Below, piece after piece: positions 27,707 through 32,600 of a stretch of DNA of 42,763 nt (positions are counted from its first letter, which is position 1; the number at the start of each line of letters is the position of its first letter). A program made the position numbers and the translations under genes. The notes below the pieces were generated by a model. The model saw only the letters and a list, made by a program, of their open reading frames with translations. It ran no database searches and was not told the origin of the DNA. Origin of the DNA: Bacteroidota bacterium (lineage in GTDB: Bacteria > Bacteroidota > Bacteroidia > NS11-12g > UBA955); the NCBI GenBank assembly GCA_030832905.1, contig JAURIG010000006.1, forward strand, positions 1 to 42,763, read 5' to 3'.

Positions 27707-28207
27707 ATGAGACACGGAAATAAAGTAAATAAATTAGGTAGAACAGCTTCTCACAGAAGAGCATTGATGGCCAACATGACCATCTCTTTGATCAAACATA
27801 AACGCATTACCACAACACTTGCTAAAGCTAAGGCTTTGAGAGTGTATGCAGAACCTATCATTACCAAATCTAAAAATGATACTATGCATTCAAGAAGAAC
27901 GGTATTTGCCTACTTAAGAGACAAAGAAGCTTTAAAAGAATTGTTCAGTGTGGTTGCTGAGAAGGTTGCCAACAGACCAGGTGGTTATACAAGAATTTTA
28001 AAGTTAGGCACCAGAATTGGTGATAACGCTGAAATGGCAATGATTGAATTGGTTGACTTTAACGAGTACACTGATAAAATCGGTCAAAAAGATAAAGCCG
28101 CTAAAGGCAAAACCAGAAGAAGTAAAAAAGCTGCAGCTCCAGCTGCTGAAACAACAACAGTTGAAGCGCCTGCTGCTGATGCAACTGAAGAAACTTCTGC
28201 TGAGTAA
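27707..28207 (+). CDS. rplQ: 50S ribosomal protein L17 with Ala/Glu/Thr tail
   Basis: At 166 residues, L17 is longer than the roughly 120-residue core. The core starts [24 protein letters not shown] and has [15 protein letters not shown]. After [11 protein letters not shown] comes a tail of Ala, Pro, Thr and Glu ([19 protein letters not shown]), probably disordered. It is the last gene of the locus and is followed by a strong hairpin. Confidence 0.98.
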
Positions 28208-28259: not shown

Positions 28260-28316
28260 GCTGTTTTTTTCCAGCCTAATTGATTTGCCTAAGCAAAAAA
28301 ACGATTGCTATGGGTT

Positions 28317-31300
28317 TTAATAATAAAACCCATAGTCGTCGCCGTAATCATATTCAGGGGTATAATAACCACCATTTCTATACCTTCTCTGACTCAATAG
28401 GTTCTCAAAGAGGTTCTTTTTCACCATTTGATCAAAGTCATCTTCTTCGTCTAAACTATTAGTAGTCATGTAAAATACGCGAGGCGTTTTGTCTGTATTG
28501 AGCTTATTGGTGTCGCAAGGCATTGACTCAGACATGTACAAAGAATACGTTTCATCGTCTTCTAATTTATAGCGGCATACGTATACCAAACCACTATCGT
28601 TGCCAATTATAATCTTCTGAGTATAAAGGATTTCAACAGTGTCAATTTTACTATAAGATTTGTAGTTATAGAAGGCTGCAATCACCATGTCAGATTGCTT
28701 CAAATAGGCCTTAGGGAATTTCTCTAATTGTTTACCGTCTTCTAGAATGTCGTACAATCTGGATCTGGTTTTATTGTTTTTTGCCAAAGCTTCATATACA
28801 GTGTCATGAAAGCTTAATTTATATTTCAATAAAACAGGCATTAAAGACAAACGCAATTCATTGTCGTTGATCTTGCATAATTTGCTGGCAATTTCACCCA
28901 TGCTGGCATTTTTGCTGCGAAGCGGAAGGGTTAGGTCTAAGAGCGAGTTTAAAACCGGTCTGTAGGTGTAGCTAGTAGAGCTTGTATAATCGTAGTCACC
29001 CCAATCTTGAATGGATTCAGCATCAATGGCATAAAAATCATAGCTGTTATAATTGTCTTTGCTTTTTAGATTGGTAAGACTGGCCATCATGCGTTTGTAT
29101 TCGATTTTGGTTTCTTTGATTAATTTGTCGTGTAAAGGCAAGTAGTCATTTTCTGTAATAATACCACTGTCTTTCATTCTTGAAATCAAATCGTAGGCAG
29201 TTATTCTGTACTCATCTATAGCGGTTAGTTCAATCAATTCATTAAGTAAATTCTTGCTTAATTTTAAAGAGTCATAGAAAGGGTATAAAATCGCTTCCAT
29301 TGAATTGCTGTTGTCAGAAATTGGCATGTCCTGAGACAAAATCGGCTTCATGTTTTGATATGATTTCAATGATTTAACCCTTGCCATTGCTGTTAAAACT
29401 TGAATTTGTAAGTAAGCCGTATCATTAAAGCGTTTGTACAATTTACTTAAGTAGGGCACAATCAGGTCTTGAGCACTGTCTATTTGAACCATTTTATCTA
29501 TCAAGGTGCTTCTGATTTCTGCAGCGTCACCCTTGTTGCTGATGGTGTCAATCATATTGTACAAATGCGGCAATTCGTTCTTAGTGAAGTTGACAGTGTA
29601 AACATATTTAATCGCAGCTTTTCTTCTGATAGAATCTTTACTGCTGAAATCCGCAATGAATCTATAGCCTTTTGGTTTAAAGATACTGTCATTGATCAAT
29701 GTGTCACTCACATCAAAGCTGTTTAGAAAGGTCGAGGCAAATTCACTTTTACCACTCACTGTGTCTAAATAAGCCACCACAGAATAACGTCTGTTGCCTC
29801 TTAAGGCACTCAATTCTTTAATGACTCTGCTGGTATTGGTGTCAGAATAGCTGTATAAGTAGTAGTCTACGCCATTGCGTTTGTAGGTTTGAGCTGATAA
29901 GCATTTTAAAGACCCTTTTTTCTTCCAAGTTTCCATATAGGTTTTAGGGTTTTTAACTTGGTTCTCATAACGACCGTAGGTATAACAACCAACTGTAATG
30001 AAATCATTAGCATTTTGGTTTTTAAAGTACATTTCTTTATAACGACCTTGGTAATATGCTTGTTCTTTTACTTCTTTTTCATCTGACTCCACATATTCAC
30101 CCCACATGCCGTAATCATAATTGCTCTCTTTGCAAAGCACGGGATTGCTAGTGGTCTTTACAGAGAAATAGAAATTGGTGTCTTTATAGTCAAAGTAGTT
30201 GAATTGTGGTTGACCATTGAATTGTATGCTGCTGAAAAAACGATCGTTAAAACCTTCGTCATTGCTATTGCCTCTAGGCATGCCTTCTAAATAACTGATC
30301 ATTGGTTTGCATACAAACAAGATATAACGTGTGCCACATACAACCATACGGGCATAGATTGGATCAATTGAGGCATTGGTGTATTGCACATCCATTGCTG
30401 CATAGCCTTGCCAGTTAAATGTTTTAGTATCAACGATTTCGTAGTTGTCAGTTGCAGCAAAACTTCTAGCCATAACATGTAATTCAAAACTATCGTGTTC
30501 TAAATAATCTTCATTTAAAACATCCAATTGTTTAATCATATAGGTATTGCCACTGCTTTTGTCGTATACTATATGCTCATAGTTGGCAGCACTTAAAAAA
30601 CTTGCTTTAAGCGGCATTGCCGGAGCTGGGCTAGGTAGCTCAATGCTAAAAATGGAATCATAACTTTGAGTGCGCTTCCAAATTCTGGCATTGCCTTCAT
30701 TAATTTGCAAGGTTTTAAAAAACTTATTGGCATCAGAGCCAATAGCAAATTTGTCTTTTCCACTTAAGCGAATAATATAAACATTAAAAGGAGAGGCAAT
30801 GATTTGGAAGCGGTTTAAGTCTCCTGTTTTTAATTGCGTGATGACTTCCATGCCACTAAAGCCATTAGAATATATAGGGCGCTTAGACGTAATCTCACCC
30901 GGGATGTTTTCAAAAATCATGGTGTCAATATCCAATAAGATATCATCAGGGGTTTTGCCAGAGAAAATGGTGTTACATGCGATTTTTTCAATTTGATAAT
31001 AATAACCATTGGCCAAGTCAGGAGAGAAGTAAGAGGTGTAATCGCTGTTGTTGTTAACCATTGATAATTTGCTTGGTAACACGGCCGTAATTAACCCATC
31101 GGCAGAGGTTTGAGCTTGGTATTTGTGTTTAAAAGCCATGTCCTCATACTTTTTGGCCATAGGGCTTTTTTCTAAGGCTAAACTTTGAACAGGTCTTAAT
31201 TGGTAGCCTTTGTCAATGAGCATTTGAATAACACCTTTATCGCCAGGCAAGTGAGCGCAACCTACTCCCGTAAACATGGTTTTGCCTAAATGCATAATAG

Positions 31301-32048
31301 AATCCATTCTGCGGGCCATATTGGCATTGCGCTTATACAACATGTATTCGCGGTAGTGGTCTGATTCCGTCATACGGTCAATTGAATCTATCATGTAGAT
31401 GTCGCCCTTTCTGTAGGCTTCAGCTACTTGTTGTCTGAGTTTATAAGATTTAGAAAAGTTAAAAGTCTTCTTTTTGGCGTCTTTTGGTTCTTTTTGCGCT
31501 TTTTTAACTAATTCTCTGCTTTCTTCAAAGCCTTCAACACCCGTAAACCCTTTGCCTAATTTTTTAGCAATTTGATAAATGTATAAATCCAACCAAACAT
31601 CTTCTTCAAAGTCGCCTTGATCACCTCTGGTCAATAAATAATTCACCTCTCTGGCTTCTTCGCTCAATTTGCTTTTTAGCAAACGTTTGTTGTAGCTGTT
31701 GAGTTTGAAGTCTGACAAAGTTAAATAGTCTTGAGACCCTCTTTGATAAACTTTGTTCGCATCTTCGGGTTTGTCAAAATCGTTGTCTGTAATCCATTGG
31801 TGAATTACACTGTCAAGGTTTTGTTCAAGGGCAACAACATCACTTTTTGATAGGGCCAAATAGAATGAATCACCTAAGTGAAAGGCGAGTTTTTGACTCA
31901 CGTGCATGGTGCCATAGAGGTAACTTGGTTTTTTTAGGCCATTGCCAGTGATTTGCCATAACAAACCTTTTTGTTGTTTGTTGTTTTGTGCCGTGGCCGT
32001 TATAAGACCAATACCTATAAAAAGACTGAGTAAGATGAATTTTTTCAT
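28317..32048 (-). CDS. Giant secreted TraB/GumN-type protein with internal repeats
   Basis: The 1243-residue protein starts with a signal peptide (MKKFILLSLFIGIGLITATA). Residues about 25-290 are a TraB/GumN (TIKI-like) domain: LYGTMHV (44-50, GxxH), ALEQNLD (73-79) and GVGCAHLPGD (261-270). Those conserved Gly-x-x-His, Glu and His positions are thought to make a metal-dependent hydrolase site in this family. Three loosely similar beta modules follow, at about 396-450, 548-611 and 726-780, each with a glycine-aromatic start and an FF.S-like end. From about 800 on the protein looks alpha-helical, like a repeat solenoid, and it ends in a Gly/Tyr/Asp-rich tail. No T9SS sorting domain is seen. 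Most TraB/GumN proteins are about 300 residues, so the extra 950 are unusual. The function is unknown. Confidence 0.8.
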   Translation of the reverse strand: MKKFILLSLFIGIGLITATAQNNKQQKGLLWQITGNGLKKPSYLYGTMHVSQKLAFHLGDSFYLALSKSDVVALEQNLDSVIHQWITDNDFDKPEDANKVYQRGSQDYLTLSDFKLNSYNKRLLKSKLSEEAREVNYLLTRGDQGDFEEDVWLDLYIYQIAKKLGKGFTGVEGFEESRELVKKAQKEPKDAKKKTFNFSKSYKLRQQVAEAYRKGDIYMIDSIDRMTESDHYREYMLYKRNANMARRMDSIMHLGKTMFTGVGCAHLPGDKGVIQMLIDKGYQLRPVQSLALEKSPMAKKYEDMAFKHKYQAQTSADGLITAVLPSKLSMVNNNSDYTSYFSPDLANGYYYQIEKIACNTIFSGKTPDDILLDIDTMIFENIPGEITSKRPIYSNGFSGMEVITQLKTGDLNRFQIIASPFNVYIIRLSGKDKFAIGSDANKFFKTLQINEGNARIWKRTQSYDSIFSIELPSPAPAMPLKASFLSAANYEHIVYDKSSGNTYMIKQLDVLNEDYLEHDSFELHVMARSFAATDNYEIVDTKTFNWQGYAAMDVQYTNASIDPIYARMVVCGTRYILFVCKPMISYLEGMPRGNSNDEGFNDRFFSSIQFNGQPQFNYFDYKDTNFYFSVKTTSNPVLCKESNYDYGMWGEYVESDEKEVKEQAYYQGRYKEMYFKNQNANDFITVGCYTYGRYENQVKNPKTYMETWKKKGSLKCLSAQTYKRNGVDYYLYSYSDTNTSRVIKELSALRGNRRYSVVAYLDTVSGKSEFASTFLNSFDVSDTLINDSIFKPKGYRFIADFSSKDSIRRKAAIKYVYTVNFTKNELPHLYNMIDTISNKGDAAEIRSTLIDKMVQIDSAQDLIVPYLSKLYKRFNDTAYLQIQVLTAMARVKSLKSYQNMKPILSQDMPISDNSNSMEAILYPFYDSLKLSKNLLNELIELTAIDEYRITAYDLISRMKDSGIITENDYLPLHDKLIKETKIEYKRMMASLTNLKSKDNYNSYDFYAIDAESIQDWGDYDYTSSTSYTYRPVLNSLLDLTLPLRSKNASMGEIASKLCKINDNELRLSLMPVLLKYKLSFHDTVYEALAKNNKTRSRLYDILEDGKQLEKFPKAYLKQSDMVIAAFYNYKSYSKIDTVEILYTQKIIIGNDSGLVYVCRYKLEDDETYSLYMSESMPCDTNKLNTDKTPRVFYMTTNSLDEEDDFDQMVKKNLFENLLSQRRYRNGGYYTPEYDYGDDYGFYY

Positions 32049-32091: not shown

Positions 32092-32093
32092 CG

Positions 32094-32123
32094 AAAAAAG
32101 GGGTGAATTATTTCACCCCTTTT
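32094..32123 (-). terminator. Terminator of the rpsF-rpsR-rplI operon
   Basis: On the minus strand GGGGTGAA pairs with TTCACCCC around a 4-nt loop and is followed by six T residues; an A/T extension lengthens the stem. It isolates the ribosomal operon from the TraB-like gene 46 nt downstream. Confidence 0.9.
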
Positions 32124-32147
32124 CCCCAAATAAATTTTGAATAAAGA

Positions 32148-32600
32148 TTATTCAGCAACTACCTCGATTTCAATTGTTTTTGAAACCTCTTTGTGTAAGT
32201 TGATGGTTGCGTGGTATGTGCCTAATACTTTAGGTTCTTCAGAGAAAGTGATTTTTCTTCTGTCCACTTCAATACCTTGTTCTTTTAATGCATTTGATAC
32301 TTGTAACGCAGTTACAGAACCAAAAATCTTTCCAGAAGTACCAGTTTTAGCTTTCAATACAATTTTGATGCCTTCAAGTTTGATCGCTAATGCATCAGCG
32401 TCTTTCTTAATTTTATCTTGTTTGAATGCTCTTTGTTTGATATCCTCAGCAAGCATTTTAAGGGCAGATTCTGTTGCCACTTTAGCCATGCCTTTTGGGA
32501 TGAGGTAGTTTCTTCCATATCCAGGACGTACTGCTACCACATCGTCTTTATGACCCAAATTTCTAACGTCTTGGGTAAGAATTAATTTCATGTTTGACAT
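32148..32600 (-). CDS. rplI: 50S ribosomal protein L9
   Basis: The 150-residue protein has an N-terminal domain (KLILTQDVRNLGHKDDVVAVRPGYGRNYLIP in pieces), a long connecting helix, and a C-terminal domain. L9 limits frameshifting and ribosome collisions. Two ATGs are possible (MSNMKLIL); AAGGAGG lies 6 nt before the first, which decides the start. It ends the rpsF-rpsR-rplI operon. Confidence 0.98.
   Translation of the reverse strand: MSNMKLILTQDVRNLGHKDDVVAVRPGYGRNYLIPKGMAKVATESALKMLAEDIKQRAFKQDKIKKDADALAIKLEGIKIVLKAKTGTSGKIFGSVTALQVSNALKEQGIEVDRRKITFSEEPKVLGTYHATINLHKEVSKTIEIEVVAE

Follow-up and report, generated by a model that had tools for sequence, protein, structure and literature searches.

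The locus and the layout of the protein

The window analysed here is a stretch of 42,763 nucleotides from a Bacteroidota genome. Between rplQ (plus strand, ending at 28207) and rplI (minus strand, 32148-32600) it carries a 1243-aa open reading frame at 28317-32048, which is read from the minus strand with its ATG at 32048 and its stop at 28317. These are the coordinates of the original prediction, which gave no strand. The features of the gene and of the gap that precedes it are listed below.

32093..32126, minus strand: terminator-like hairpin in the gap between rplI and the gene; a 15-pair stem followed by a T-rich tail, a consensus match only
31986..32048, minus strand: predicted signal peptide, residues 1-21 (MKKFILLSLFIGIGLITATAQ); from the sequence, lacking a lipobox Cys, predicted Sec/SPI export
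31194..31964, minus strand: TraB/PrgY/GumN (TIKI-type) domain, residues 29-285; PF01963, predicted active site H49, E75, E172, H266
30681..31133, minus strand: module 1, residues 306-456; PsbP/Mog1/DcrB fold from the AlphaFold2 (AF2) model and VIA-align, motif FENIPG
30201..30680, minus strand: module 2, residues 457-616; probably the same fold, from hhalign to module 1 and the strand-helix order
29694..30200, minus strand: module 3, residues 617-785; probable diverged copy with an extra helix, from hhalign and the strand order
28719..29693, minus strand: HEAT/ARM-like alpha-solenoid, residues 786-1110; AF2 model and VIA-align, HEAT_2 in relatives
28965-29057, minus strand: disordered Tyr/Ser/Asp loop within the solenoid, residues 998-1028
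28374..28718, minus strand: conserved C-terminal unit, residues 1111-1225; helix, beta hairpin, helix, from the alignment and the model
28317..28373, minus strand: variable Gly/Tyr/Asp tail, residues 1226-1243, and the stop codon

In 11-12 loci of the window's genus, rpsF, rpsR, and rplI precede the gene on the same strand. Co-transcription with rplI was rejected because of the terminator-like hairpin that lies in between, which makes a promoter of the gene's own likelier. A second terminator-like hairpin (28308-28335) overlaps the last codons and the stop of the gene, and the codons of the YGFYY tail form half of its stem. Outside the genus the neighbours differ and are unrelated housekeeping genes, the commonest clusters occurring in 18-19 of 80 loci, and no conserved neighbour hinting at a substrate was found in these 80 loci. 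The genomic context suggests a stable chromosomal gene.

The predicted signal peptide and the TraB domain

The protein had been proposed to be secreted, and the signal sequence predicted at residues 1-21 is consistent with this. A hydrophobic N-terminal stretch is present in 84 of 104 long relatives in a crude scan, and a lipobox-like motif in two of them. The adjoining region is a TraB/GumN domain with the expected GxxH, Glu, and His motifs, as the original prediction had it: PF01963 matches with an E-value of 3.6e-35 and 122.5 bits (curated cut-off 26.8) over model positions 1-262 of 263. The GxxH motif (G46-T47-M48-H49) and the glutamate (E75) lie in the first half of the domain and the second histidine (H266) near its end, an arrangement expected of TIKI-type domains. 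All four candidate catalytic residues, H49, E75, E172, and H266, are present in 103 of 104 relatives, and the single exception lacks all four. E149 and E172 are alike nearly invariant (103/104), and either E172 or E149 may be the second catalytic glutamate; D154, R240, and N241 are also nearly invariant among the 104.

To our knowledge, peptidase activity is generally poorly established for bacterial members of the TraB family. The catalytic centre of solved TIKI-type enzymes is of the 2His/2Glu type, and in one case activity depends on an added recruitment lobe (PMC6254334). PrgY, which is homologous to TraB, probably degrades an exported peptide pheromone (PMC7117660), and Wnt ligands are the cleavage targets of Tiki (PMC12329661). 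In Erwinia amylovora, copper induces a TraB/GumN protein along with copA and cueO (PMC12542790), which is a possible clue to the role of short TraB proteins. The likeness of the window protein to the TraB/PrgY/GumN and TIKI superfamily is confined to its N-terminal 257 residues. Typical TraB proteins of the same genomes are either ~280-345 aa long or reach 547-600 aa and then carry a single, weakly recognisable module, whereas the window protein has ~950 further residues appended. In the TraB proteins of 547-600 aa (loci L161-L168), the second half resembles one PsbP-type module split by a long acidic insert.

Three PsbP-type modules

The three loosely similar beta modules noticed earlier in the sequence are true repeats. 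Their boundaries were set by eye on the sequence, ahead of the profile comparison. With hhalign, the family profiles of modules 1 and 2 align at a P score of 99 and an E-value of 3.1e-17, and those of modules 2 and 3 at a P score of 96 and an E-value of 1.8e-9. The alignment of modules 1 and 3 covers the full length and is weak (E 0.0014, P 7), so that as a sole pair it would be unconvincing. In the controls, segments from outside the modules gave E-values of 0.058 or above and reversed modules of 0.16 or above. Structure prediction also returned the repeats: the AF2 model of residues 300-790, built from 81 sequences (pLDDT 88.7, pTM 0.85), has in each module the same order of strands, a helix, four strands, and a helix, with an extra helix in module 3.

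The modules had been taken to be of an unfamiliar kind, which holds for sequence families and fails for the fold. Pfam models of PsbP do not match the window protein, and PsbP_2 matches 1 of 81 relatives weakly (E 0.0079). In VIA-align, module 1 reaches Z-scores of 12.3 to 3lyd, 12.2 to CyanoP (2xb3), 11.3 to LpqN (6e5d), and 10.0 to DcrB (6e8a), and it superposes on solved members of the PsbP/Mog1/DcrB fold at Z 10-12 over 106-140 residues at 2.6-3.8 A. The list as a whole contains PsbP, LpqN, DcrB, EagT6/SciW, Mog1, TplEi/Tli4, and a Bacteroides protein of unknown function (3hlz) at Z 8-12; the 300-790 model was searched as one piece, and nearly all rows align module 1. Module 3 has a weak match to an RseB domain (Z 6.9). 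Modules 2 and 3, as profile homologues of module 1 with the same modelled strand order, probably share its fold. TbpB-like barrels, which came top by Foldseek E-value, were rejected at TM-scores of 0.08-0.10 and an rmsd above 20 A.

Unlike the known proteins of the PsbP/Mog1/DcrB/LpqN fold, the window protein carries three copies in tandem, set between a TraB domain and a solenoid. Several of PsbP, LpqN, DcrB, EagT6/SciW, TplEi, and Tli4 have been solved in complex with proteins. Module 1 is the best-conserved part after the TraB domain; within the genus the two are conserved to much the same degree, at ~70-77% for module 1 against 73-87% for TraB in most blocks.

The solenoid and the C-terminal end

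The long helical, solenoid-like part that was expected after the modules is present in the AF2 model of residues 786-1225 (80 sequences, pLDDT 88.5, pTM 0.84) as a paired-helix alpha-solenoid at residues 786-1110, and the list of structure matches for this model is taken up by it. VIA-align relates the solenoid to ARM/HEAT proteins at Z ~11-12 over 208-320 residues, a score within the range of unrelated helical repeats that shows shape more than ancestry. The Pfam model HEAT_2 matches 30 of 80 relatives (E-values up to 0.1, best 2.1e-6), and no HEAT model matches the window protein. For these reasons, we call the solenoid HEAT/ARM-like. HEAT/ARM solenoids are common protein-binding scaffolds. 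The likeness to these repeat proteins is mainly one of shape, and unlike them the solenoid here has a disordered loop that interrupts it and a small conserved unit as a cap at its end.

This unit has the consensus GxVYFxKY...WxxxxSGxQPxD. The Gly/Tyr/Asp-rich end described in the original prediction is real, but it comprises only ~18 residues and is a variable tail behind the conserved unit of ~115 residues, not a domain. Of 107 relatives, 52% have an aromatic last residue (Y, F, or W), compared with 11% of 524 neighbouring open reading frames; the relatives are not independent, and five to ten of these ends may be artefacts that arose where loci are split or truncated. An aromatic C-terminus as a conserved sorting signal was not upheld, because the tail itself is variable and the relatives counted are not independent, and the excess of aromatic ends is kept as an observation.

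Distribution and origin of the family

Within the genus, 17 genomes including the window's own were covered: 13 have a full-length copy and two more a piece at a contig end. A match is present in 39 of 59 related genomes. Scanning 84,980 species genomes with patterns built so that the hits contain TraB returned 434 relatives. The best 80 of these 434 were fetched, most of them matched nearly full-length, and their organism names are all Bacteroidota or unspecified bacteria. Within the phylum, 22 of 395 genomes match a profile of the solenoid and the C-terminal unit; within the order, the figure is 39 of 108. The family is widespread yet patchy in Bacteroidota.

The computations show the whole layout (TraB, three modules, solenoid, and C-terminal unit, in this order) in 112 of 113 non-identical long relatives, the lone exception being cut by a contig end. 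The reported fusion of TraB to a large scaffold is thus correct but not peculiar to this genome, and a one-off fusion or an annotation artefact was rejected, since the layout recurs with open frames in these 112 relatives. Its retention also argues that the parts work together. In a FastTree phylogeny of TraB domains, 105 large proteins form a group separate from every short or one-module TraB protein (local support 0.99), and the few most divergent large proteins join this group with poor or no support. A single origin of the layout is likely on this tree.

A known family covering the full length was looked for and not found in Pfam, NCBIfam, or PDB sequences. The sole Pfam match of the window protein is PF01963 (29-285), NCBIfam gives none, and the PDB gives no significant match by sequence; three stray matches, two of them with E > 0.1, are non-significant. 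As the original prediction held, no named family covers the full length, and the remaining ~950 residues of the window protein are without a match in these collections. A literature search, with most subscription journals outside its reach, found nothing on TraB/GumN together with PsbP or HEAT. The parts are of known kinds, and their combination, conservation, and spread appear to be undescribed.

A residue-less copy and scaffold-only proteins

One relative (L096:2040-5849) is a full-length copy that lacks the equivalents of H49, E75, E172, and H266 and has all other segments. An intact full-length copy with all four residues (L096:5809-9627) lies directly downstream on the same strand, and the two tandem open reading frames overlap. 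Other proteins lack the TraB domain. A 762-aa protein (L156/L183) consists of two modules, the solenoid, and the C-terminal unit; the gene at L183:7760-10048 encodes a signal peptide and is followed, after a few bases, by a 220-aa open reading frame of unknown role, and neither a TraB gene nor an obvious enzyme partner was found beside it. A 426-aa protein (L159:1659-2939) has the solenoid and the C-terminal unit only. Together, the TraB-less proteins and the residue-less copy indicate that the scaffold can stand as a unit of its own, which joined TraB and can persist without catalysis, and so has some role apart from it.

Proposed function and alternative explanations

We put forward, as a reading about as likely to be right as wrong, that the protein is an exported, probably periplasmic, TIKI-type peptidase whose modules and solenoid provide a surface on which a substrate or a partner docks. 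The signal-like N-terminus would direct export, probably to the periplasm; the TraB domain, judged by its family, would hydrolyse a peptide or protein through its His/Glu centre; and the modules and the solenoid would select or hold the substrate or a partner complex. We infer this recruitment role from how PsbP-type and HEAT scaffolds are known to behave and from the lobe required by one solved TIKI-type enzyme, and a shared fold does not amount to a shared function.

Of the alternatives, an unlikely one that still deserves weight is a scaffold with a structural or assembly role in the cell envelope, in which the modules and the solenoid hold an envelope complex, TraB is regulatory or binding, and catalysis is minor. 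It is kept alive mainly by the residue-less copy, which adjoins an intact one, and by the TraB-less proteins, and it accords with the PsbP and DcrB relatives that work in or with membrane complexes (PMC7716261). Were catalysis dispensable, however, drift would not have left all four residues in 103 of 104 TraB domains. We regard as improbable that TraB hydrolyses a non-peptide substrate such as an ester or lactone, with the scaffold serving surface attachment. The superfamily does hold the Ere esterases of the erythromycin-esterase branch, which share the His-Glu pair (PMC6254334), but the domain is assigned to the TraB/GumN family and not to the esterase family, and a large protein-docking scaffold would better fit a protein substrate.

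Just as little credence is given to an explanation in which TraB is a shutdown or immunity factor that acts by binding or sequestering a peptide, and incoming proteins are neutralised by the modules in the manner of the T6SS immunity proteins TplEi and Tli4. These tandem-module proteins are among both the Foldseek and the VIA-align matches, and the patchy distribution in the phylum and the order would suit such a role. The fold match, however, spans one module-sized stretch and not the tandem arrangement, and TplEi and Tli4 are ~280-300 aa long and have neither a TraB domain nor a solenoid. As a rule, immunity proteins change quickly and move together with the toxin they counter, whereas TraB and module 1 diverge slowly within the genus, where the gene keeps a fixed housekeeping site next to rpsF-rpsR-rplI with no toxin gene beside it.

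Significance

The peptidase reading can be extended to a group of undescribed, widespread envelope proteases of Bacteroidota, in which a TIKI-type enzyme is set within a scaffold of three PsbP-type modules and a HEAT-like solenoid, with a regulatory pair of enzyme and pseudoenzyme in at least one lineage; in this full form we think it speculative and rather unlikely. TraB/GumN proteins range from bacteria to animals (Tiki, TRABD), and their bacterial roles are mostly obscure. An enzyme that carries its own docking scaffold would give a handle on its substrate, for which the scaffold could be used as bait, and since its carriers include culturable genera (Chitinophaga, Niastella, Cellulophaga, and others), the question can be put directly to experiment.
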